Assembly: GCF_001687335.1 (NCBI RefSeq)
Contig: NZ_MAGO01000001.1
Coordinates: forward strand, 310,001-374,000
Source: Dissulfuribacter thermophilus
GTDB lineage: Bacteria > Desulfobacterota > Dissulfuribacteria > Dissulfuribacterales > Dissulfuribacteraceae
DNA: 64,000 nucleotides
Direction: 5' to 3'
The position numbers and the translations under genes are program-made. This document shows positions 836-39,189 of the stretch, in pieces; position 1 is the stretch's first letter; each line of letters starts with the position of its first letter. The notes under the pieces are model-generated. The model was not told the origin of the DNA and ran no database searches. It saw nothing but the letters and a program-made list of their open reading frames with translations.

Positions 836-1819
836 ATGAGAGTTGTCATGCCTTTATTCTTAGTGGTTGGCCTGGCACTGACTGCATGGGTTGGCTGGGC
901 TATTCATCTTCAAGGATTATTTGGTGTCCTGGTTCCTTATTTGGCTGCCCTGATTTTTGTGGTTGGATTTTGTGTGAAGGTGGTAGACTGGGCCAAGTCT
1001 GCCGTACCGTTCAAGATTCCGACCACAGCTGGCCAGCAAAAGTCATTGCCGTGGATCAAGCACGCAAAGATTGAGAGCCCATTCACCACAGGTCAGGTGA
1101 TCCTCAGGATGTTTTTCGAGGTCTTTTTCTTCCGTTCACTCTTTAGAAACGTGAAGGGTGAGCTGAGGAGTGGACCAAGTCTTATTTACGGTCCGACCAA
1201 GTGGCTATGGCTTTCAGCGATTATGTTTCACTATGGATTTCTCATGGTCATACTTCACCATCTGAGACTTGCGACATATCCTGTTCCAGGTCCCATCGCA
1301 TTGCTTGATAAGATAGATGCAATGTTCCAGATCGGTGCTCCACCTATCTATCTTAGTAGTCTACTCCTTCTCATTGGGGTTGTTGCCTTGTTTTTGAGGA
1401 GAGTTCTGATACCTCAGGTGCGCTACATTTCGCTTGTCAATGATTACTTCCCGCTGTTCCTTATTTTTGGAATAGTGGTGAGTGGTATGCTCATGCGCTA
1501 TTTTGTTAGGACTGATATTGTGGCAGTAAAGGCACTTGTCATGGGTCTCGTCACGTTCCACCCTGTGGTACCAGAGGGGATTGGGGCAATTTTCTATATT
1601 CATTTGTTCCTCGTCTGTTGTCTCTTTGCCTATTTCCCCTTTAGTAAGCTCATGCATATGGGCGGTGTCTTCATGAGCCCGACTAGGAACTTGCCTAATA
1701 ACAACAGGGCAGTTCGCCATGTGAATCCATGGAATCCAAAGGTAAAACTCCACACCTACGAGGAGTGGGTTGAGGACTATAGGGATAAACTCGAAGAGGC
1801 AGGAATACCAACAGATTAA
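836..1819 (+). CDS. dsrM: DsrM, cytochrome b subunit of the DsrMKJOP complex
   Basis: A membrane protein of 327 residues resembling the gamma (cytochrome b) subunit of respiratory nitrate reductase. In DsrMKJOP it binds two hemes b and passes electrons from menaquinol to DsrK. Several hydrophobic spans are visible: residues 3-50, a central pair with histidines (SAIMFHYGFLMVILHHLR), and VVALFL, FPLFLIFGIVV and FYIHLFLVCCLFAYFPF. The C-terminal tail is hydrophilic and cytoplasmic-looking. The length fits the family. dsrK follows after 18 bases, and the order M-K-J-O-P is conserved, which makes the assignment firm. Confidence 0.93.
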   Translation: MRVVMPLFLVVGLALTAWVGWAIHLQGLFGVLVPYLAALIFVVGFCVKVVDWAKSAVPFKIPTTAGQQKSLPWIKHAKIESPFTTGQVILRMFFEVFFFRSLFRNVKGELRSGPSLIYGPTKWLWLSAIMFHYGFLMVILHHLRLATYPVPGPIALLDKIDAMFQIGAPPIYLSSLLLLIGVVALFLRRVLIPQVRYISLVNDYFPLFLIFGIVVSGMLMRYFVRTDIVAVKALVMGLVTFHPVVPEGIGAIFYIHLFLVCCLFAYFPFSKLMHMGGVFMSPTRNLPNNNRAVRHVNPWNPKVKLHTYEEWVEDYRDKLEEAGIPTD

Positions 1820-1837
1820 TAAAAAAGGGTGAGAGAT

Positions 1838-3457
1838 ATGGCAGTACCAAAACCAAACGAACTTTTAAAAATAGATCATAAACCTCCCAAGAAATGGTGG
1901 ATGGATACAAAGCCCACTTTTAGGCCTGGGACATATAGTTATCCATCCAAGCCAAAGAACATTGAGATCCTGGACATGTGGAATCCTAGGGAGTGGTCGC
2001 CAACTGATGAAGATTGGAAGCTCCCAGAGGATTGGAAGGAAAGGATTCTTGAGGGTTTCAGAGATCTGTTGAAAAAGTATAGATCTCTGAAGGTATTCAT
2101 GGACATATGTGTTCGTTGTGGAGCCTGTGCAGACAAATGCCATTTCTTCATAGGTTCCGGCGATCCTAAAAACATGCCAGTTCTACGCGCCGAGCTTATG
2201 CGGTCGGTTTACAGGGGAGAATTTACTAAGGCAGGTCAGATCCTTGGGCGTTGGGCTGGGGCGCGTGAACTGACATACGACGTCGTAAAGGAATGGTTCT
2301 ATTACTTCTATCAATGTACCCAGTGTAGGCGTTGTTCTCTGTTCTGCCCATATGGTATTGATACAGCCGAGATCGACCTTGCAGGTCGCCATCTGTTGAA
2401 TCTAGTTGGTTGTAACATAAACTGGATGATGGAGCCTGCGGCAAATTGTTACAAGGTTGGAAACCATATTGGTATTCAACCTCATTCCTTAAAGGACATG
2501 ATCGACTTCTTTGTGGAGGATATTGAAGACCTTACTGGGGTAAAGATAGAAGTTCCCTTTATGAAGAAAGGGGCTGAGGTCCTATTCGTGACACCTTCAG
2601 GTGACTTCTTTGCCGACCCGGGTACTTACACCTTCATGGGCTATCTCATGCTTTTCCATGAGATAGGCCTTGACTATACCATGAGCTACTATGCAGCTGA
2701 GGGTGGTAACTTCGGGTTTTTCACAGGTACCATTGAAAATGCAAAGAAATTGAATGCCAAAATATATGCTGAGGCAAAAAGGCTTGGTGTAAAGTGGATA
2801 CTAGGCGGTGAGTGTGGGCACATGTGGCGTGTGGTCCACCAGTACATGGATACCCTTACCGGGCCAGCTGACTTCTTGGAAGTGCCCAAGTCTCCCATTA
2901 CTGGTACTGTGTTTGAAAACGCCAGATCTACTAAGATGGTCCACATTACGGAATTTACTGCAGACCTCATCAAGCATGGTGCCATCAAACTAGATCCAAG
3001 CAGAAATGCAGGTATAAAAGCCACGTTCCATGATTCCTGTAACCCATCACGCGGTATGGGATTGTTTGAAGAGCCGAGATACGTGCTCAAGAACGTGGTT
3101 CCAGAATTCTATGACATGCCTGAGGATACAATTAGAGAAAAGACTTTCTGCTGTGGTAGTGGATCAGGTCTCAATAACGACGAGTTCATGGAAATGCGCA
3201 TGAGGGGAGGACTCCCAAGGGCCAATGCAGTTAAGTACGTGCGCGACCGTTACGGCGTCAATACCCTGAGCTGTGTTTGCGCAATTGACAGGGCAGTCTT
3301 GCAGCCATTGGTCAATTATTGGGTACCAGGAATAACTGTTACTGGTGTGCATGAACTTGTCGGCAATGCCCTTGTGATGAAGGGTGAGAAAAAGCGCACT
3401 GTCAACTTAAGACAGGAGCCCATACCAGGAATGGAGGAGGAAGAAGGAGATGTATGA
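1838..3457 (+). CDS. dsrK: DsrK, HdrD-like iron-sulfur subunit of the DsrMKJOP complex
   Basis: The cytoplasmic catalytic subunit (539 residues), related to heterodisulfide reductase HdrD. It is thought to reduce the DsrC trisulfide or disulfide using electrons from DsrM. Two ferredoxin-type cluster motifs are visible near residues 90-105 (CVRCGACADKC) and 162-175 (CTQCRRCSLFCP). A CCG-type domain carries HDSCNPSRGMG and FCCGSGSG, ligands of the noncubane [4Fe-4S] centre. A GTG at 1829 is in frame, but ATG 1838 sits behind AAGGGTGAGAG and is the better start. The stop overlaps dsrJ by 8 bases, so the two are translationally coupled. Confidence 0.93.
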   Translation: MAVPKPNELLKIDHKPPKKWWMDTKPTFRPGTYSYPSKPKNIEILDMWNPREWSPTDEDWKLPEDWKERILEGFRDLLKKYRSLKVFMDICVRCGACADKCHFFIGSGDPKNMPVLRAELMRSVYRGEFTKAGQILGRWAGARELTYDVVKEWFYYFYQCTQCRRCSLFCPYGIDTAEIDLAGRHLLNLVGCNINWMMEPAANCYKVGNHIGIQPHSLKDMIDFFVEDIEDLTGVKIEVPFMKKGAEVLFVTPSGDFFADPGTYTFMGYLMLFHEIGLDYTMSYYAAEGGNFGFFTGTIENAKKLNAKIYAEAKRLGVKWILGGECGHMWRVVHQYMDTLTGPADFLEVPKSPITGTVFENARSTKMVHITEFTADLIKHGAIKLDPSRNAGIKATFHDSCNPSRGMGLFEEPRYVLKNVVPEFYDMPEDTIREKTFCCGSGSGLNNDEFMEMRMRGGLPRANAVKYVRDRYGVNTLSCVCAIDRAVLQPLVNYWVPGITVTGVHELVGNALVMKGEKKRTVNLRQEPIPGMEEEEGDV

Positions 3458-3836
3458 TTCAGGTAAGGTCATCATAGGACTCGTAATATTTGTGGCGATA
3501 GCTACCTTCCCATTTTGGTTTGGTATGGGCAAGGCTGCACCCATGCCAGAGCCAGTAATCATGACCAAGGGCCAAAAGTGCGTAGAGTCCAAAGATTACA
3601 TGCGTGCCTCCCACATGTACTTATTAAATGTGTGGAGAGATCAGGCCTTGAGGGATGGTAATCGTGTATATGAAAATAAGCGTGGGGAGAAGGTTACTAT
3701 TTCGCTCCAAAATACCTGTATGAAATGTCATTCCAACAAGGAAAAGTTTTGCGATAGGTGCCATGACTATGCAGAAGTAAAACCCTATTGCTGGGATTGC
3801 CATTTCGTCCCGAAGGAGAGTAAGCAATGGAATTAA
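3450..3836 (+). CDS. dsrJ: DsrJ, periplasmic triheme cytochrome c
   Basis: A membrane-anchored multiheme cytochrome of 128 residues. The N-terminal hydrophobic anchor (residues about 8-27) is followed by three closely spaced CxxCH heme c motifs: CMKCH, CDRCH and CWDCH. Three hemes is the usual count for DsrJ. AAGGAG precedes ATG 3450, and the gene overlaps both dsrK and dsrO. The other cysteine, near residue 43, could contribute an unusual heme ligand, as reported for DsrJ in general; that point is family knowledge and cannot be read from the sequence alone. Confidence 0.93.
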
Positions 3837-4657
3837 AGAGAAGGGATTTTCTAAAAATAGTAGGTGGATCTGCCTTGATAGGGGGGAGCGCCATTTCGGC
3901 GTTGGTTGAAGAGGCAGGAATAGCCCACGCCAGTCCCCACGAGGAACATGGCCATAGTGCCGAGGAAGATCACGGCCATGGCCATATTGAAGAAGCATCG
4001 GGGATCCGTTGGGCGATGGTTGTGGATATGCGTAAATGTTCTGAGCAGGAAGGGTGCAGAGACTGCATTAATGCATGTCACTACGTCCATAATGTGCCAA
4101 ACTTCCCAGATCCAAAGGAAGAAGTTAAATGGATTTGGAAAGATGAATATCACCATGTATTTACAGACATCTCTACACTAGATCCCTATGTGCCAGAACA
4201 TATTAAAAGGCATCCATTTTTGGTACTTTGTAACCATTGTGACAATCCTCCATGCGTGAGGGTGTGCCCTACAAAGGCGACCTTTAAGAGGCCAGATGGC
4301 ATAGTCGCCATGGATTACCATAGGTGCATAGGATGTAGGTTCTGCATGGCAGCTTGCCCCTATGGCTCCAGGAGCTTTAATTGGCGAGATCCGCGATTGG
4401 GACTCAAGGGGAGAGAGCTAAACTACGAATTCCCCACAAGAATGAGGGGTGTTGTTGAAAAGTGTAATTTCTGCGTGGAGAGGTTAGCTCAAGGCAAGAT
4501 TCCAGCCTGTGTCGAAGCTTGTAAACATGGGGCTTTGACCTTTGGTAATCTGGCTGATCCTAATTCAGAGGTGAGGGCTCTGTTAAGGGAAAACTATGCC
4601 CTTAGACGTAAGCCACAGTTAGGTACCAAACCATCTGTATTTTACATTATCGCATAA
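3827..4657 (+). CDS. dsrO: DsrO, Tat-exported ferredoxin-like iron-sulfur protein
   Basis: A periplasmic iron-sulfur subunit of 276 residues. The N-terminus has a twin-arginine motif (KRRDFLK) and a hydrophobic stretch ending near ISALVEEAG, which marks it for Tat export. A His-rich linker ([16 protein letters not shown]) follows. Several cysteine groups typical of NrfC/HybA-type proteins follow: [42 protein letters not shown] and [16 protein letters not shown]. DsrO is expected to carry four [4Fe-4S] clusters and to work with DsrP and DsrJ on the outer face of the membrane. tatC lies about 6 kb downstream. Confidence 0.93.
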
Positions 4658-4669
4658 GGTGAGGGAGCC

Positions 4670-5827
4670 ATGATAGAAAAAGCATTACAAGGTAGTTCAA
4701 GATATTGGACCTGGATAGGTTTCCTGCTCGTCTTAATCGGAGCGGGTTTCATAAGCTATCTTTATCAGCTTAAGACCGGTCTCGGCATAACAGGAATGAG
4801 TAGGGACGTGTCCTGGGGTGTTTATATCGCCCAGTTCACCTATCTCGTCGGTGTTGCAGCTGGGGCTGTTATGTTGGTTATCCCAGAGCTCCTACATGGC
4901 TATCATCCCTATAGACGTGTAGTTGTATTCGGAGAATTTTTGGCAATTGCTGCTGTCACCATGTGTTTGTTGTTCATAGTTGTGGATATCGGGCAGCCAG
5001 CAAGACTCTTTAATGTCCTTTTACACCCGACTCCCAACTCAATTTTATTTTGGGACATGATTGTCTTAAATGGGTATCTGTTAATCAACATTATAGTTGG
5101 TTATAATACCTTACTCTGTGACAAGAAGGGAATACCTGTACCCAAATGGGTGAAATTCTTTGCCTACGTTTCCATTCCCTGGGCATTCAGTATCCATACA
5201 GTTACTGCATTTTTGTATTCAGGCCTCCCAGGCAGACATGCATGGCTGACCGCTATAATGGCACCCAGGTTCCTTGCTTCAGCATTTGCATCAGGGCCTG
5301 CGTTGTTAATCCTGCTCCTCCTTATTGTGAGGAAGGTCAGTAAATACGATCCTGGTGAAAAGGTATTGCAGTCAATAGCAAAGACAATTTGCTACGCAAT
5401 GATTGCCAACCTTTTCTTTGTGGGGCTTGAATTCTTCACCGCCTTCTACAGTAATATCCCAAGCCATATGCACGGATTGGAATACCTCTTTTTTGGACTT
5501 CATGGACATGATCAGCTAGTCCCATGGATGCAGACTGCAGGTGTGTTAGGATTTCTTGGGGTATTTATACTCCTGATTCCGCCTCTGCGTAGAAGGATTG
5601 GATTCCTGGCCCTTGCTTGCGCCGCAATAATTGCATCGACATGGACTGATAAAGGTGTTGGATTGGTTATTGGAGGATTTGTCCCAAATCCATTTGAAAA
5701 AATAACAGAATACCATCCAACCTTTCCGGAGATTACAATTGCCATCGGGATTTGGGCCGTAGGATTCCTTATACTCACTGTACTTTATAAGGTAGCGATC
5801 TCCGTTAGGGAGCAAGAGCTAAACTAG
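4670..5827 (+). CDS. dsrP: DsrP, NrfD/PsrC-type quinone-interacting membrane protein
   Basis: An integral membrane protein of 385 residues with about ten hydrophobic segments. It belongs to the NrfD/PsrC family of heme-free subunits that exchange electrons with menaquinone. Recognisable stretches are SWGVYIAQFTYLVGVAAGA and IPWAFSIHTVTAFLYSGLPG. It is the last gene of the dsr operon, 12 bases after dsrO, behind a GAGGGAG ribosome binding site, and is followed by a strong terminator. Together with DsrO and DsrJ it forms the JOP half of the complex. Confidence 0.93.
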   Translation: MIEKALQGSSRYWTWIGFLLVLIGAGFISYLYQLKTGLGITGMSRDVSWGVYIAQFTYLVGVAAGAVMLVIPELLHGYHPYRRVVVFGEFLAIAAVTMCLLFIVVDIGQPARLFNVLLHPTPNSILFWDMIVLNGYLLINIIVGYNTLLCDKKGIPVPKWVKFFAYVSIPWAFSIHTVTAFLYSGLPGRHAWLTAIMAPRFLASAFASGPALLILLLLIVRKVSKYDPGEKVLQSIAKTICYAMIANLFFVGLEFFTAFYSNIPSHMHGLEYLFFGLHGHDQLVPWMQTAGVLGFLGVFILLIPPLRRRIGFLALACAAIIASTWTDKGVGLVIGGFVPNPFEKITEYHPTFPEITIAIGIWAVGFLILTVLYKVAISVREQELN

Positions 5828-32017: not shown

Positions 32018-32626
32018 CTAGAGGTGGACAGATTCGAATGCCTCTCTCAGTACAGACACTGGCCTGCCGAGGAGGGCATCGTAGGCATTTTCTTTAAGTG
32101 GACAAGATTTTTTTAATTTGTTTCGGAATTCTTGGTCCTTACGTTCTAAATCCATGAGTCCATTAGTATCATGTAAGGCAACGAGTCTCCTTATAAGAGA
32201 TGGAGCAAATAGTCTGTCGTATTCCTCGAAAATTTCCCGTAGGGTCTTATCCTTAAAAATCATCTTTCTATTTAGGAGATCCTTTAAAAACATGGAAATC
32301 AGTGGATCTGGGTTCCAACATTCCAGGGTTTTACACTCAATTGGTCGATTCTCATAGATCAGGCAGGAGTTAGTTGATTCTTTAAAAAAAATACAGGTAA
32401 AGCCTCCTATCTTTCCCTTGATTTTGATCATGTCGTAAGGTAGTTCTATGAGCATTCCTTTAACTGGGTGATATGCGAGTTCTCCTTTTCTAAAGGTTAC
32501 GAGTGCATCTGGACTGAGGACGTCATCCATGACGATTTTGTCTTCGACATGGAGGGTAGGACCGCCTTTTTGGCAACAGGTCCCGCATCTTCTGCATGAT
32601 TGGATAGTGTTATAAGAAGAAATCAT
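32018..32626 (-). CDS. YkgJ-type cysteine-cluster protein
   Basis: A soluble protein of 202 residues with the CxxCxxCC-type cluster near the N-terminus (CRRCGTCCQKGGPTLH) and a second group (CLIYENRPIECKTLECW), as in the YkgJ/UPF0153 family, which is thought to bind zinc or an iron-sulfur cluster. Function unknown. The frame is open up to TTG 32716, but ATG 32626 gives the normal N-terminus. That ATG shares the palindrome CATG with the start of the divergent gene at 32625, so any promoter would have to lie in the neighbouring coding sequence. Confidence 0.75.
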   Translation of the reverse strand: MISSYNTIQSCRRCGTCCQKGGPTLHVEDKIVMDDVLSPDALVTFRKGELAYHPVKGMLIELPYDMIKIKGKIGGFTCIFFKESTNSCLIYENRPIECKTLECWNPDPLISMFLKDLLNRKMIFKDKTLREIFEEYDRLFAPSLIRRLVALHDTNGLMDLERKDQEFRNKLKKSCPLKENAYDALLGRPVSVLREAFESVHL

Positions 32627-33209
32627 GGAAAAGAACTTTACAACAAATCTGCATCTTTTAAAGGCGCTTGAAGGGCTTTTTGAGAATGCTGATTGGGCAT
32701 TCTCAGAGATCGCCAAGGCCTTTCCAAATGAGGTTGCATGCTCTAAGGGCTGTTCTGATTGCTGTCATGCAATGTTTGATGTGTCGTTAATAGAAGCGAT
32801 TCTATTGAAAAAAGAATTTTTGGCGCTTCCAAGAAAAGTCAGACGGGATGTTGAGCGTAATTCCAAAAGGGCATTAAAGGAGTTTAGGGCAGTCTCTAAT
32901 ACTAAAGACCCCTCCACAGTCAAAATCAGATGTCCTCTTCTATCTAAACAGGATTCGTGTCTTATTTATAAGGCAAGGCCAATTAATTGCAGGACCTACG
33001 GAGTGCCCACAAATATTGATGGAAAGGCTCATGTGTGCCCCAATAGCAGATTTGAACTAGGGAAAAACTATACGACTCTAAATTTAGGTCCGCTTCAGGC
33101 GAGACTGCTTGAGCTATCGATGTCAGCCGGAGGGCCAGTGCTTGGAAGACGTAGGTGGTCTATTGCCGAAGTAATACTTGATCTAGATGAGGTATTCGCC
33201 TCACTATAG
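32625..33209 (+). CDS. YkgJ-type cysteine-cluster protein, divergent paralogue
   Basis: A protein of 194 residues with a helical N-terminal region of about 40 residues, then CSKGCSDCCHAMFDVS and CPLLSKQDSCLIYKARPINC, followed by a conserved C-terminal helix region. It is the same family as its divergent neighbour but clearly diverged in sequence. The start ATG 32625 overlaps the neighbour's ATG in CATG; the upstream AGAAGAA is only a weak ribosome binding site. It ends at a perfect bidirectional terminator. Confidence 0.78.
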   Translation: MEKNFTTNLHLLKALEGLFENADWAFSEIAKAFPNEVACSKGCSDCCHAMFDVSLIEAILLKKEFLALPRKVRRDVERNSKRALKEFRAVSNTKDPSTVKIRCPLLSKQDSCLIYKARPINCRTYGVPTNIDGKAHVCPNSRFELGKNYTTLNLGPLQARLLELSMSAGGPVLGRRRWSIAEVILDLDEVFASL

Positions 33210-33360: not shown

Positions 33361-35103
33361 TTACTGGTCCAGCATGGCCTCCAGCTGAGCTATTCCCTGT
33401 TCCAGTATTTTTGCCCTTTCACTGGAGCGCGTTTGTTTAAATATGTTGAGGGCAGTTTTATATGCATCAAGGGCCTTGTTAAGGTCTCCACGCCTTTGAT
33501 AGACATCTCCAATTCCTGTAAGGTAATAACCAGCCTTTCCGGCATCACCTGCAATTTCAGCTATTTCAAGTGCCCTCATATAATAGGGCATGCATTTATC
33601 GAATTCATTTTTTCTCCTGTAAATATCTATTATTTTTTCTATTAATATTACTTCGCTAACTGGATCATCCTTTTTTTGGCAAATGGCAACAGCTCTTTGA
33701 TATAGTGGTAGGGCGCTGTTTAGATTTCCTCTAAAGCAGTTTAGATCCCCAAGTTTTTCGCAAGCATTGGCTATGCCTTTGTCATAACCCTCTTCTTCAA
33801 ATACACTCAAGGCCTCTTTGAGCTTGTCCATTGCATCCAGGCTTCTTCCCTGATTGCTGAGGACTTCTCCCTCTTCAAAGAGTTTTTGAGCCTCCTTAAT
33901 CCTTTCGTTGTCTATATTGTCCATGTCTTCTGTACTCCCTTTAATCCGTGTTAGTGCGTTTTGAGCCAGTTGAGAGACGGTAAACTCTTCAAGGCCTTTT
34001 TCCGTCAATAGGTTTACTGCATTTAAATCTTCAATAAGTGCTTCGATTGACCGGACACATTCCGATGCCCTGATAAGACCCAGTACCCAGGCAGCGAGTC
34101 CCCTAACTTCAGGGGCTTTTGCATCTAAAAATTGTATTAAATAAAAAAATGCCTTATCTTTTACACGTTCAGGATGTTTTTCTGCGATTCTGCCAAGGGC
34201 CCAAAGCACGCTGGCACGCGAATCTTCAAAGCGTCCCAATGCTAGCAACTCCCTTATAAATATATCGAAGGTGTCTGGAAGCTCTCTGATGATTTCACCA
34301 CTAGCTTCAATTGCCCCCCAGTTTGTGGCAGCAGAATCGCTGGCAGAGTAAAGGAGCCTTCTCAAAAATTCCCCTACAAAATTGGGTTTTTTCTGATAAA
34401 TAGTCTTGGCCGCACAGCCAATTGCGGTGATGGCGCGCCATCTAATGGTAGGATCAGGGCTGTAAAGTACCTGTTGGAGTCTGTTCAGGACCTTTGGTTC
34501 CGAGGCCGCCAAATATCTTATCTTGTAGAGGTAGTCTGGGTCCAGGGATTCTATGATTTTTTTTATCTCCCTTTTGCTAGCTTTTCTTTTATAGGACCCG
34601 GCCTTTTGCGCCAGGGATGGCGCTGTATCCATGGATGGTGGGCCTTGGCCCTGTTCATCCTGCACCTCGGTTTCTTTATGAGTTTTTACTGAGGTCTTGT
34701 TTTTGATTCCAAGGTCTATTTCAGATTGAGTTTTTAGGGAACGGACTTCGTCGGTAAAACGAATAAATGTAAGTACTCCCCTGACCCTTCTTTCATCCTC
34801 AGTCCTACCTGATGGATGGATTAGATGAGTCTTTAAGTCATATTGTTCAATATGTTTTTCCTTATAGTCTTCATCAGGTAGTAGTCCCCATGCCAGATCC
34901 CAATCGAAATTGCATCCATAGCCCAGGGCTTCCACAAAGGCAGCTCCCAGGTTATGACCTGTTACATCATAAACGTATACTGCCCCGCAGTCACATTTTC
35001 CATATGCGAAATCCCCAAGCCTTTTGGGCTCAAGTTCTGCAGGGGGCTCTATGAGTCGATCACAAAATGGACACCTTGGTGGATAAGGGCCTTTAAGTCG
35101 CAT
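33361..35103 (-). CDS. Zinc-ribbon, HEAT-repeat and TPR scaffold protein
   Basis: A cytoplasmic protein of 580 residues in three parts. An N-terminal zinc-ribbon-like segment has CPFCDRLIEPP and GKCDCGAVYVYD (residues about 11-45). A middle section of HEAT-like repeats includes RWRAITAIGCAA and RASVLWALGRIAEKHPERV. The C-terminal half has TPR repeats (KLFEEGEVLSNQGRSLDAMD, YLTGIGDVYQRRGDLNKALD). No enzymatic motif is seen. It overlaps the upstream TPR gene by 11 bases and is transcribed away from dsrAB. A scaffold or assembly role near the sulfite reductase is inference from position only. Confidence 0.75.
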   Translation of the reverse strand: MRLKGPYPPRCPFCDRLIEPPAELEPKRLGDFAYGKCDCGAVYVYDVTGHNLGAAFVEALGYGCNFDWDLAWGLLPDEDYKEKHIEQYDLKTHLIHPSGRTEDERRVRGVLTFIRFTDEVRSLKTQSEIDLGIKNKTSVKTHKETEVQDEQGQGPPSMDTAPSLAQKAGSYKRKASKREIKKIIESLDPDYLYKIRYLAASEPKVLNRLQQVLYSPDPTIRWRAITAIGCAAKTIYQKKPNFVGEFLRRLLYSASDSAATNWGAIEASGEIIRELPDTFDIFIRELLALGRFEDSRASVLWALGRIAEKHPERVKDKAFFYLIQFLDAKAPEVRGLAAWVLGLIRASECVRSIEALIEDLNAVNLLTEKGLEEFTVSQLAQNALTRIKGSTEDMDNIDNERIKEAQKLFEEGEVLSNQGRSLDAMDKLKEALSVFEEEGYDKGIANACEKLGDLNCFRGNLNSALPLYQRAVAICQKKDDPVSEVILIEKIIDIYRRKNEFDKCMPYYMRALEIAEIAGDAGKAGYYLTGIGDVYQRRGDLNKALDAYKTALNIFKQTRSSERAKILEQGIAQLEAMLDQ

Positions 35104-35725
35104 TGATTTTTTCTAGAAACTCAGGATGTACTGCATAGCCCAATTCTCTGGCCTTTTGGGCATGTTCTTTGGCCTTTTCAAGGTCTCCTTTATAATAGTA
35201 GGCTACTGCCAGGTTATTATGGGCAAGCCCAAAGGACGGAGCGAGCCTAACTGCTTTTTCTCCAGCCTGAACGGCGTCATCAAATTCCTTTAATTCTACG
35301 AGTACCGTGGCAAGATTTGTCCATGCAGGTACCATTTCAGGTTTTATTGAAAGTGCCTTTTTAAAGTAATCACAGGCTTTCTGCCACTTTCCCAATTGGA
35401 GATAGGCGCTTCCTATGTTTGCATATGCCTCAGCTGCCCTGGGATAAATCTCTGCGGCCTTTTTGTTTTCTTCGATACCTTCTTCAAGGCGCCCCATTTG
35501 GAAGTAAAGAGTTCCAAGATTTATGCGTATTTCGAAGGAGTTTGGATCTATTAAAAGGGCCTTTTTAAATGTGCTAATGGCATCATCTAGCCGATCGTTT
35601 CTCCAATAAGCAAGGGCTAGTCTGTGGGCCGCGATAGCAGAGTTAGGATGGGCCTTAAATTCTTTTTCAAGGTGTTGGATCATTTCCTCTTCTGTCTTTT
35701 TCGGGCTGGTCTTCCCGCTTCCCAT
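35093..35725 (-). CDS. TPR-repeat protein
   Basis: A protein of 210 residues made of about five tetratricopeptide repeats, e.g. AAHRLALAYWRNDRLDDAIS, IRINLGTLYFQMGRLEEGIE, AYANIGSAYLQLGKWQKACD and AHNNLAVAYYYKGDLEKAKE. No signal peptide is seen. AAGGAG precedes ATG 35725. It is the first gene of the pair running away from dsrAB and overlaps the HEAT/TPR gene, so the two should be produced together. Confidence 0.85.
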   Translation of the reverse strand: MGSGKTSPKKTEEEMIQHLEKEFKAHPNSAIAAHRLALAYWRNDRLDDAISTFKKALLIDPNSFEIRINLGTLYFQMGRLEEGIEENKKAAEIYPRAAEAYANIGSAYLQLGKWQKACDYFKKALSIKPEMVPAWTNLATVLVELKEFDDAVQAGEKAVRLAPSFGLAHNNLAVAYYYKGDLEKAKEHAQKARELGYAVHPEFLEKINAT

Positions 35726-35941: not shown

Positions 35942-36042
35942 TAAATACCATGAAATAGTAAAAAAATCCACATTATTTATGTTTAATATTTAAGGATTAA
36001 GAATTAGAGGAAATGCAATTTATAAAAAGGAGTGAATTTTCT

Positions 36043-36237
36043 ATGGATAATTTTAAATTAAATTGTAAAGTATGCGGAGGCGAGGCTGAAATTCGAGGTC
36101 GCTGAGCCTGTGCAAAGGTGGTCTGCAAGGAGTGCGGACTTACTTTTTCCAAAAATGATTATTATGAGGAAATTGAACTGGCTAAAGAGCGATTAATAAG
36201 GAAATTTGATGTGAATATCAATTCAGCTCGTACTTGA
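36043..36237 (+). CDS. Candidate selenoprotein: small zinc-ribbon-like protein with in-frame UGA
   Basis: ATG 36043 follows AAGGAG by 11 bases. The frame gives 20 residues (ending CKVCGGEAEIRGR), an in-frame TGA at 36103-36105, and then 43 further residues of clearly protein-like sequence (UACAKVVCKECGLTF and a charged helix) to TGA 36235-36237. Read with selenocysteine at position 21, the protein has 64 residues and the pattern C8-x2-C11, U21-x-C23, C28-x2-C31, that is, a U-x-C motif between two zinc-ribbon CxxC pairs. A 6-bp SECIS-like hairpin begins 16 bases after the UGA. Its stop codon lies inside the dsrAB promoter. Alternatives are a nonsense mutation of a Trp or Cys codon in a Lar-like zinc ribbon, or a sequencing error. 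Confidence 0.55.
36121..36139 (+). promoter_or_regulatory. SECIS-like hairpin downstream of UGA 36103
   Basis: GTCTGC (36121-36126) pairs with GCGGAC (36134-36139) with one G-U pair; the loop AAGGAGT has two Gs and begins 22 bases after the UGA. This fits the general bacterial SECIS geometry. Caution: the CKECG codons themselves favour such a hairpin. Confidence 0.45.
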
Positions 36238-36263
36238 CAAGAAATGCACAAGCAGATTATAAA
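36234..36263 (+). promoter_or_regulatory. Candidate sigma-70 promoter of dsrABD
   Basis: TTGACA (36234-36239) and TATAAA (36258-36263) are 18 bases apart. The -35 hexamer overlaps the stop codon of the small UGA-containing gene. The transcript would have a leader of about 115 bases before dsrA. Confidence 0.6.
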
Positions 36264-36307: not shown

Positions 36308-36355
36308 GGTGATTCATTATTGCCTAAGGCAAATACTGTATCACCACCTAAGGCA
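36308..36355 (+). promoter_or_regulatory. Hairpin-rich dsrA leader with repeated CCTAAGGCA
   Basis: GGTGAT (36308-36313) pairs with ATCACC (36340-36345) and encloses a second stem TTGCC/GGCAA (36320-36324, 36328-36332). The near-palindrome CCTAAGGCA occurs twice (36323-36331, 36347-36355), 24 bases apart. The symmetry suits either a dimeric regulator or a structured 5' leader controlling dsrA. The ribosome binding site GGAGGG (36374-36379) lies just after it. Confidence 0.5.
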
Positions 36356-36387: not shown

Positions 36388-37680
36388 ATGGCGGATGTCA
36401 AAAAACATGACACCCCCATGGTCGACGAGCTTAAAAGCGGACCATGGCCAAGTTTCGCAGATGACATTGAACAGGCAGGGTTAAAAGGCAAGCAGGCCTG
36501 CCTCGATCTCTTGGGGCAGCTAGAGCTTTCCTACAAGCACAAGGAAACTCACTGGAAACATGGTGGAATCGTTGGTGTTTTTGGTTATGGTGGTGGAGTC
36601 ATTGGTCGTTATTCCGACGTGCCAGATAAATTCCCAGCAATTGCACATTTCCATACAGTACGTGTAAATCAGCCAGCAAGTAAATTTTATACCACAGCCT
36701 TCTTAAGGAAGATTTGCGATATATGGGATCATAGAGGAAGTGGTATGACCAACCTTCATGGTTCCACTGGTGATATGGTCCTTCTTGGTACCAGTACAGA
36801 CCAGCTTGAGCCCATTTTCTATGACTTGACACATCAGGTTGGTGCTGACCTTGGTGGTTCTGGTTCAAACCTCCGTACACCTTCATGCTGTGTAGGTAAG
36901 GCAAGGTGTGAATGGGCCTGTATAGATACCCAGGATATTTGCTACAATCTCACCATGACCTATCAGGACGAACTTCACAGGCCTGCCTTCCCATATAAGT
37001 TTAAGTTTAAGGTATCAGGATGCCCCAATGACTGTGTTGCAGCTATCGCACGTTCAGACTGTGCAATCATCGGTACCTGGAGGGATGATATAAGGATTGA
37101 TCAGGAGGCTGTTAAGGCCTATATCGGCGGTGAGTTAAAGCCAAATGCTGGTGCTCATAGTGATCGTGACTGGGGTCCATTCGATATACAGAAAGAAGTT
37201 ATCGATCTCTGCCCCACCAAATGTATGTGGATGGAAGATGGTGAGCTAAAGATCAATAATCGTGAATGTACCCGTTGTATGCACTGCATCAATGTCATGC
37301 CAGAAGCGCTTCGTCCTGGTACTGATACTGGTGCTACTATTCTTGTGGGTGCAAAGGCTCCGATCCTTGACGGTGCTCAGCTCGGTACTCTTGCCATTCC
37401 ATTCATAAGGATGGATAAAGAGGACGATTACGAAGAATTCAAGGATTTCGTAGACAAGATTTGGGATTGGTGGATGGAAGAAGGAAAGAACAGAGAGCGT
37501 TTTGGCGAACTCATTCAGCGTCAGAGCCTCCAGGAGTTCATTAGAAGGGCTGAGCTCAAGCCAATTCCACAGATGGTTAAGGAGCCAAGGTCTAACCCAT
37601 ACGTCTTCTGGAGAGAAGAAGAAGTTGAAGGTGGCTGGCAGCGTGATGTGAAGGAATTCCGCGCACGCCACGCAGCATAG
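36388..37680 (+). CDS. dsrA: DsrA, dissimilatory sulfite reductase alpha subunit
   Basis: 430 residues. With DsrB it forms the A2B2 siroheme enzyme that reduces sulfite to the DsrC trisulfide in the cytoplasm. The siroheme/[4Fe-4S] ligands are in TPSCCVGKARCEWACID and in the SGCPNDC segment. A ferredoxin domain near residues 275-310 holds CPTKC and CTRCMHCINVMP. The N-terminal part with HGGIVGVFGYGGGVIGRYSD is typical. The start has GGAGGG 8 bases upstream. dsrB follows after 31 bases. Confidence 0.97.
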   Translation: MADVKKHDTPMVDELKSGPWPSFADDIEQAGLKGKQACLDLLGQLELSYKHKETHWKHGGIVGVFGYGGGVIGRYSDVPDKFPAIAHFHTVRVNQPASKFYTTAFLRKICDIWDHRGSGMTNLHGSTGDMVLLGTSTDQLEPIFYDLTHQVGADLGGSGSNLRTPSCCVGKARCEWACIDTQDICYNLTMTYQDELHRPAFPYKFKFKVSGCPNDCVAAIARSDCAIIGTWRDDIRIDQEAVKAYIGGELKPNAGAHSDRDWGPFDIQKEVIDLCPTKCMWMEDGELKINNRECTRCMHCINVMPEALRPGTDTGATILVGAKAPILDGAQLGTLAIPFIRMDKEDDYEEFKDFVDKIWDWWMEEGKNRERFGELIQRQSLQEFIRRAELKPIPQMVKEPRSNPYVFWREEEVEGGWQRDVKEFRARHAA

Positions 37681-37711: not shown

Positions 37712-38914
37712 ATGGATAACACCAATATTGCAGAACTCGTTGCAAAACCATATGATCCAGAGCTTGCTGAAAAGCTCTACGATCCTAAGAAACCCATGGA
37801 GAACCGTATCACTGACATCGGTCCTCCACACTATGAGCAGTTCTTCCCACCTGTCATCAAAAAGAACTACGGAAAGTGGAAGAGCCACGAAATTGTACAG
37901 CCTGGTGTCATAAAATATGTGAGTGAGACTGGAGACGTATGCTTTGCTGTGCGTTGCGGGTCTGCTCGTCTTATTACAACAGATCTCATTCGCGAGATCT
38001 GCGAAATAGCAGACAAGTATTGCGAAGGCTATGTCCGTTGGACTACTCGTAACAATGTAGAATTCCACGTAACAGATGAAGAGACCCTTAAGGCACTACT
38101 TGAGGATCTCAAGAGTAGAAAATTTCCAGGTGGATCCTACAAATTCCCTGTAGGCGGTACTGGAGCAGGTATCACGAATATTGTCCACACTCAGGGATGG
38201 GTGCACTGCCACACTCCTGCTATTGATGCATCAGGTGTTGTCAAGGCAGTTATGGACGAACTATTTGACTACTTCGGTAGCCACAAGCTGCCAGCACAGG
38301 TAAGGATTGCTCTTGCTTGCTGCCTCAACATGTGTGGTGCTGTGCACTGCTCAGACATTGCAATCCTAGGAATTCACAGGAAACCCCCATTGGTAGAGGA
38401 TGATCGTATCACAGGTGTCTGCGAGATTCCACTTGCAGTCGCTGCATGTCCTCTTGGAGCCATCAAGCCTGCAACTGTGGAGATTGATGGTGAGAAGAAG
38501 AAGACAGTGCGCGTAAACCAGGATAGGTGTATGTTCTGCGGTAACTGCTACACCATGTGCCCCGCAATGCCTCTTGCAGACGGTGAGGGTGACGGAATAG
38601 CTATTCTTGTTGGTGGAAAGATCTCCAACAGGGTAAGCGCACCTAAGTTCTCCAAGCTCGTTATCCCCTACATCCCCAATGAACCACCACGTTGGCCATC
38701 CGCTGTAAAGGCTGTCAAGAACATCCTCGAAAAATATGCAGAGGGTGCAAATAAGTATGAACGTTTAGGTGAATGGGCTGAAAGGATTGGCTGGGAGCGC
38801 TTCTTCGAGGTCTGTGATATTCCATTTACCGAAAAGTCAATCGACGACTACAGACTGGCCTATGACACCTATCGCACTACCACACAGTTTAAGTGGTCTG
38901 TGCATACAGATTAA
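37712..38914 (+). CDS. dsrB: DsrB, dissimilatory sulfite reductase beta subunit
   Basis: 400 residues. It holds the functional siroheme site with [18 protein letters not shown] and the ferredoxin domain [15 protein letters not shown], plus [14 protein letters not shown] near residue 110. A strong AGGAGGTGA site precedes ATG 37712. The gene order A-B-D and the sequence type point to the reductive bacterial DsrAB; a tree would be needed to place the lineage. Confidence 0.97.
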
Positions 38915-38940: not shown

Positions 38941-39189
38941 ATGGCAGCCAACATGGAAGAACTGAAACAAAAGATCTTGGAATTTGCCACTAAAAAGGCA
39001 GCACATAAGTCCAAGATGTACATAAAGGACCTCTACAAGGCCGATCCTGATGCAAAACCAAGGGAAATAAAGAAGGCCGCTAATGAACTAGTAAAGGAAG
39101 GAAAGCTTGAGTACTTCTCTTCTGGTTCAACTGTTATGTATGGGGTCCCAGGCTTTGGAAAGGGTCTTGAGGAGGCCTTTGAAGAGTAG
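38941..39189 (+). CDS. dsrD: DsrD, winged-helix activator of sulfite reductase
   Basis: 82 residues. DsrD is a small winged-helix protein that raises DsrAB activity and is a marker for reductive sulfur metabolism; this is family knowledge. Sequence: ILEFATKKAAHKSKMYIKDL and a wing region KLEYFSSGSTVMYGVPG. AAGGAG lies 7 bases before ATG 38941; the frame is open further upstream but without a better start. A terminator follows. Confidence 0.95.
   Translation: MAANMEELKQKILEFATKKAAHKSKMYIKDLYKADPDAKPREIKKAANELVKEGKLEYFSSGSTVMYGVPGFGKGLEEAFEE

Follow-up and report, generated by a model that had tools for sequence, protein, structure and literature searches.

The window, i.e. the whole 64,000-nucleotide stretch of DNA analysed here, contains a short putative selenoprotein gene on the forward strand at positions 36043..36237, comprising 64 residues plus the stop codon. 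The start codon ATG lies at 36043, and 10 bases separate it from the end of a ribosome-binding site, AAGGAG (36027..36032, +). Codon 21 is an in-frame TGA (36103..36105, +), which the alignment of homologues marks as the probable selenocysteine codon; 43 codons follow it, and the stop codon TGA occupies 36235-36237. The predicted product, MDNFKLNCKVCGGEAEIRGR-U-ACAKVVCKECGLTFSKNDYYEEIELAKERLIRKFDVNINSART (U being residue 21), is zinc-ribbon-like, and its cysteines are laid out as C8-x2-C11, then C23, then C28-x2-C31. Residues G19-R20-U21 are the GxU motif of this protein, and the gene belongs to the homologues that we call group A (G-R-U). Genes as short as this one score below the annotation cut-off and can escape annotation.

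Downstream, on the same strand, lie dsrA (36388..37680), dsrB (37712..38914) and dsrD (38953..39189, PF08679). Upstream, comparison of neighbourhoods revealed a divergent gene for a TPR protein that is conserved in the order (35093..35725, -), a conserved neighbour for a larger TPR/HEAT protein that carries CxxC pairs at its N-terminus (33361..35103, -) and another for a CxxCxxCC (PF03692) protein (32625..33209, +). The gene set at 836..5827 (+), about 30 kb from the selenoprotein gene, we take to be dsrMKJOP from its look and order.

Comparison of dsrA upstream regions also placed a promoter-like element, TTGACA-N18-TATAAA, at 36234..36263 (+). Its TTGACA (36234-36239) overlaps the stop codon of the selenoprotein gene, and TATAAA follows after 18 bases; the element was not listed by the promoter scan, which demands a T at the last -10 position. 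The features named in the preliminary description (reading frame, CxxC pairs, in-frame UGA, ribosome-binding site, hairpin, overlap of stop codon and TTGACA) are all present in the sequence. The meaning attached there to the overlap was not supported by comparison. A TTGACA plus TATAAA-like element was found upstream of dsrA in nine of nine genomes compared, whatever gene precedes it, and in G002, where dsrA is also directly downstream, the selenoprotein gene ends upstream of the element with no overlap. Because the element is kept independently of the selenoprotein gene, the overlap is nothing special and looks incidental.

The dsrA leader of the window (36311-36355) contains a nested inverted repeat, TGGTGAT ... 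TTGCC ... GGCAA ... ATCACCA. It is common to the window genome and G002; none of the seven further dsrA leaders showed it, and it had no Rfam match.

Homologues and the probable selenocysteine codon

We searched 41 genomes, the present one plus 40 relatives from the same order, and 37 of them had a match at E<=1. We kept 61 places as order-level homologues and excluded five with E over 0.1. The 61 places split into group A (n=35), with the context G-R/K-U, and group B (n=26), mostly with R-R-U-R or similar; one copy of each per genome was a frequent pattern. The split was supported by 100/99 in the tree, in which the Cys forms of group A fell in at least two places (few columns, long branches). 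Across the phylum, the group-A profile had matches in 61 of 395 genomes, or in 52 after removing family f50, whose nine genomes were set aside as group B-like from the look of L174 and L175. The group-B tally for the phylum is a bulk count of profile matches. A profile built on four sequences gave seven loci in named genomes, with Desulfacinum hydrothermale among the carriers.

Two genomes of family f48 (G144 and G112; L138 and L139) carry the selenoprotein module as a fusion with a C-terminal domain of ~110 residues, for which no Pfam family scored above the cut-off. Group B has a conserved R-x-D-R-I tail at the C-terminus. In many genomes of the order, its gene (e.g. G000:C1:29504-29647) comes immediately after a fabD-like gene, with gcvH-, moaA- and murA-like genes close by; this fabD cluster was found in 17 genomes among the 26 loci, with gene names given by the look of the sequences.

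The codon aligned with the in-frame UGA was TGA in 60 of the 61 order homologues of both groups, the sole exception being TGC (Cys) in G008. Among 71 group-A rows of the phylum (35 from the order and 36 from elsewhere), 68 had TGA, three had TGC (Cys) and none had TGG. The four cysteines of the two CxxC pairs that flank this Sec/Cys position are invariant columns in the alignment. The position of C23 is usually Asn in the homologues, so that the U-x-C proposed earlier as a motif is not conserved. The reading frame past the UGA is conserved in the homologues, and the codons after it are under purifying selection in the majority of closely related pairs (G017/G031, for instance: dN 0.03, dS 1.21), in a comparison that used 15 codons before the UGA and gave values from few sites.

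The genome encodes SelA (579 bits), SelB (367 bits) and a tRNA-Sec with UCA anticodon (73.5 bits). In bacteria, a SECIS element is expected to form a hairpin immediately downstream of the UGA, with a G early in its loop. Such a SECIS-like hairpin, GGUCUGCA-AGGAG-UGCGGACU, is found at 36120..36140 (+). It starts 14 bases 3' of the UGA and has eight pairs, of which six (GUCUGC/GCGGAC) begin at 36121. G is second in its five-base loop (first loop G at 36129), and its pairing shows silent covariation.

The stability of the hairpin on its own was unremarkable (z -0.96). As 35 of 200 shuffles folded equally well, the energy of the single sequence proves nothing, and position and comparison carry the case. 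The inner pairs are weak evidence since conservation of the Cys-x-x-Cys-Gly codons largely dictates them; the outer pairs are freer. In 31 of 33 rows, the silent third position of the Gly codon pairs with base 19, where the T of TGA is base 0. The mean was 20.7 in shuffles that leave the relatedness among rows in place, and none of 20,000 shuffles reached the observed value. The same covariation was found in 27 of 29 distinct haplotypes. Families f39 and f72 have a different hairpin nearer the UGA, GGUAAG-GUGU-CUUACC, with versions GGUGAG-GUGU-CUCACC. Group-B stems are mostly like GCCCUU-AGGUGU-AAGGGC, and a few rows (e.g. G021, G018, G004) are unpaired in that register. A search of the site against Rfam returned no convincing RNA.

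The assignment as a selenoprotein, already made in the preliminary description, is strengthened by the alignment of the UGA, which faces UGA or a Cys codon but in no case Trp, by the presence of SelA, SelB and tRNA-Sec(UCA) and by the covariation of the hairpin. On this basis, we regard the gene as very probably a selenoprotein gene.

Outside the window, at G000:C11:19787-26000 (L185 2785-9016), there is a second SelB-like gene. It is preceded by a 90-base tRNA-Sec-like gene with a GCA (Cys) anticodon and by a formate dehydrogenase gene whose usual Sec site is occupied by TGC (NCARVCHAP). The combination of second SelB and tRNA-Sec-like gene (GCA) is also present in G031, G006 and G007, in G031 again with a TGC formate dehydrogenase. 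This locus looks like a system for selenocysteine insertion at a Cys codon, which would operate in a cell that also has the ordinary UGA system. Insertion of this kind is known, as summarised in PMC8124441, citing Mukai 2016.

Association with dissimilatory sulfite reduction

The typical layout in the order is dsrABD - CxxCxxCC protein - two TPR genes (-) - group A (+) - dsrP, O, J, K, M (-), with variable orientation of dsrABD. In most relatives, the group-A gene stands alone, divergent from the TPR gene (23 of 35 copies) and convergent with dsrP (21 of 35, within 600 bases). Judged by these gene directions, most relatives do not transcribe it together with dsr. Some dsr gene was found in the stretch examined for 25 of the 35 copies, and dsrMKJOP directly adjoins the group-A gene in many relatives, including the Cys form in G008. 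A dsrA gene directly downstream was seen in two of the 35 only, in the window genome and G002. Six copies (G005, G007, G009, G015, G016 and G030) had no dsr or TPR neighbour, and several others with no dsr gene in view are located at contig ends.

Genomes were counted as dsrA-positive at E<=1e-100. This applied to 187 of the 395 phylum genomes, and to 190 with the partial G003, G267 and G362, which were added by eye. The lists for co-occurrence were compiled manually; families were listed, and their total of ~108 counted, by eye. dsrA was found in 51 of 52 genomes with group A (59 of 61 with f50 included) and in 83 of 87 genomes with group B. Either group was present in 109 of the 395 genomes; of these, 105 had dsrA, vs 85 of the other 286 (Fisher p ~5e-37, phylogeny ignored). 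At the level of families, all 35 with A or B fall among the 55 with dsrA.

The preliminary description had tied the selenoprotein to the expression or maturation of sulfite reductase, with metal delivery or redox sensing as candidate roles. The tie itself is borne out by the dsr neighbours in the order and by the co-occurrence with dsrA, but the neighbourhood does not extend further: beyond the order, it is kept only in G300, one of 36 group-A loci in the stretches examined. Some of the other loci lie near dnaX/recR- or topA-like genes. As an association, the link of groups A and B to dissimilatory sulfite reduction is well supported.

How specific this link is depends on a competing explanation. 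The protein may be a general selenoprotein with an unrelated job, e.g. detoxification or metal handling, which accompanies dsr because of a shared anaerobic sulfidic habitat and descent. We consider this possible, with a probability well under one half. It would agree with the position of the gene away from dsr in most genomes outside the order, with the housekeeping-like neighbours (fabD, gcvH, murA) of paralogue B and with the 85 of 190 dsrA-positive genomes that carry neither group. The restriction to dsrA genomes is harder to reconcile with it. Only four of the ~205 genomes without dsrA have A or B, and two of these four are incomplete (G150, 76%; G081, 67%). The group-A Cys forms in G075 and G413 are dsrA-positive too, and with SelA in 355 of the 395 phylum genomes, the restriction is not simply explained by the use of selenocysteine.

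Predicted fold and proposed role

The AlphaFold model, based on eight sequences, had a mean pLDDT of 78 and a pTM of 0.53. It consists of strands 14-18 and 25-28 with residue 21 in the turn between them, a short strand and a helix (37-62). By topology, the selenocysteine would be placed at the hairpin end opposite the Cys knuckles. Matches to solved structures were weak and mostly to zinc ribbons, RPB9/C11-type ones among them (best Z 4.0, best Foldseek E 0.16). Neither VIA nor Foldseek returned a strong match, and the absence of the family there carries no weight. In a profile search of the PDB, the best hit was a short zinc-finger match with E 0.017, which is not convincing as a relative, and a Pfam search of the window protein gave nothing above the cut-off.

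A zinc-ribbon-like fold with weak RPB9/C11-type matches could also belong to a regulator of dsr expression that attaches to nucleic acid or RNA polymerase and uses the selenocysteine as a redox switch. In the window, the gene end does touch the dsrA promoter. However, small ribbons are common, and the promoter element of dsrA is kept where the selenoprotein gene is kilobases away, which makes a regulator of this type rather improbable.

Decoding of the UGA as Trp or by ordinary readthrough, without selenocysteine, is conceivable at any UGA, and the hairpin was indeed flagged by the terminator scan. The T-run after the hairpin is absent from most relatives, however, and the lack of TGG next to three TGC forms, the covariation and the Sec machinery of the genome leave this decoding very improbable. 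A pseudogene or chance reading frame broken by a nonsense mutation is a negligible alternative, as had been argued from the start for an old pseudogene: with the standard code the frame does stop at the UGA, and the stability of the single hairpin is ordinary, but TGA is kept in nearly all group-A rows from many families, with the downstream frame conserved.

We favour an explanation in which the gene encodes a small, zinc-ribbon-like, UGA-decoding selenoprotein with its own SECIS element, most likely acting in an accessory step of dissimilatory sulfite reduction, and we give this a probability of roughly 65%. DsrAB, DsrC and the DsrMKJOP membrane complex have their roles in the pathway of sulfite reduction, and a central question in research on microbial sulfur respiration is by what route the sulfur product of DsrAB is passed on and removed. 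The UGA would be read as selenocysteine with the help of the SECIS hairpin just downstream. The four cysteines would bind zinc or, alternatively, iron, and the selenocysteine, exposed at the hairpin tip between the CxxC knuckles, would offer a reactive selenol instead of serving as a metal ligand. The accessory step may be one of redox or sulfur handling, e.g. persulfide or trisulfide sulfur could be reduced or transferred between DsrAB, DsrC and DsrMKJOP.

A more far-reaching version is tentative, and we would sooner bet against it than for it. It states that this family, which has no assigned function, is dedicated to dissimilatory sulfite reduction as one of its components, that its exposed selenol, carried on a zinc ribbon, handles the persulfide or trisulfide sulfur between DsrAB, DsrC and DsrMKJOP and that its genes track dsrAB phylum-wide. 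If true, the family would be a missing accessory factor, and selenium would gain a role in sulfite reduction.

Comparison with known systems

The Lar restriction alleviation protein (PF14354, TIGR03655) is likewise small and has a similar first knuckle, CxxCGG. The window protein matched it with E 0.006 and 17.2 bits, below the gathering cut-off of 28.6, and Lar was rejected as an identification. To our knowledge, no Lar restriction alleviation protein contains selenocysteine.

The closest comparison is NF041197, the NCBIfam model for a dual CXXC motif small (seleno)protein. Group A resembles it in length, in the two CxxC pairs and in the selenocysteine between the pairs. The window protein scored 35.1 bits (E 1.1e-8), which is below the cut-off of 40. 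All 35 group-A members of the order matched at E<0.001, and 14 of them reached E 3.3e-10, which approximately corresponds to the cut-off. The second copy of the genome, a group-B member, scored 59.2 bits and was above the cut-off. Group A differs by its G-R/K-U-A-x-A-x-V in place of R-R-U-R-x-V and by having its own side of the tree. On these sequence comparisons, group A is filed as a sister group of NF041197 and not as a member called by the model.

Two published names come under this model. Table 1 of a 2026 review lists both OS_HP3 (RxU) and the hypothetical protein DW (GxU) under NF041197 (PMC13188914). In the deep-Sep paper, the entry for DW names Desulfosarcina as its source and reports Sec and Cys homologues, with neither a function nor a gene context given in that entry (PMC12013277). 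The naming in print is unsettled, as SMF39960.1 appears as DW in the table of the 2026 review (PMC13188914) and as OS_HP3 in the 2022 review. Group A shares with DW the G two residues before the selenocysteine (GxU), a domain of NF041197 type and the occurrence of both Sec and Cys homologues. By motif and domain, group A fits the published "hypothetical protein DW", which is known here by its description. In those portions of the literature that our search covered, including PMC13188914, PMC12013277, PMC9312934, PMC9499178 and PMC8124441, a link between this family and dsr was not found. Hence, the kind of selenoprotein is already known, although uncharacterised, and its connection to sulfur metabolism and dsr is the new part.
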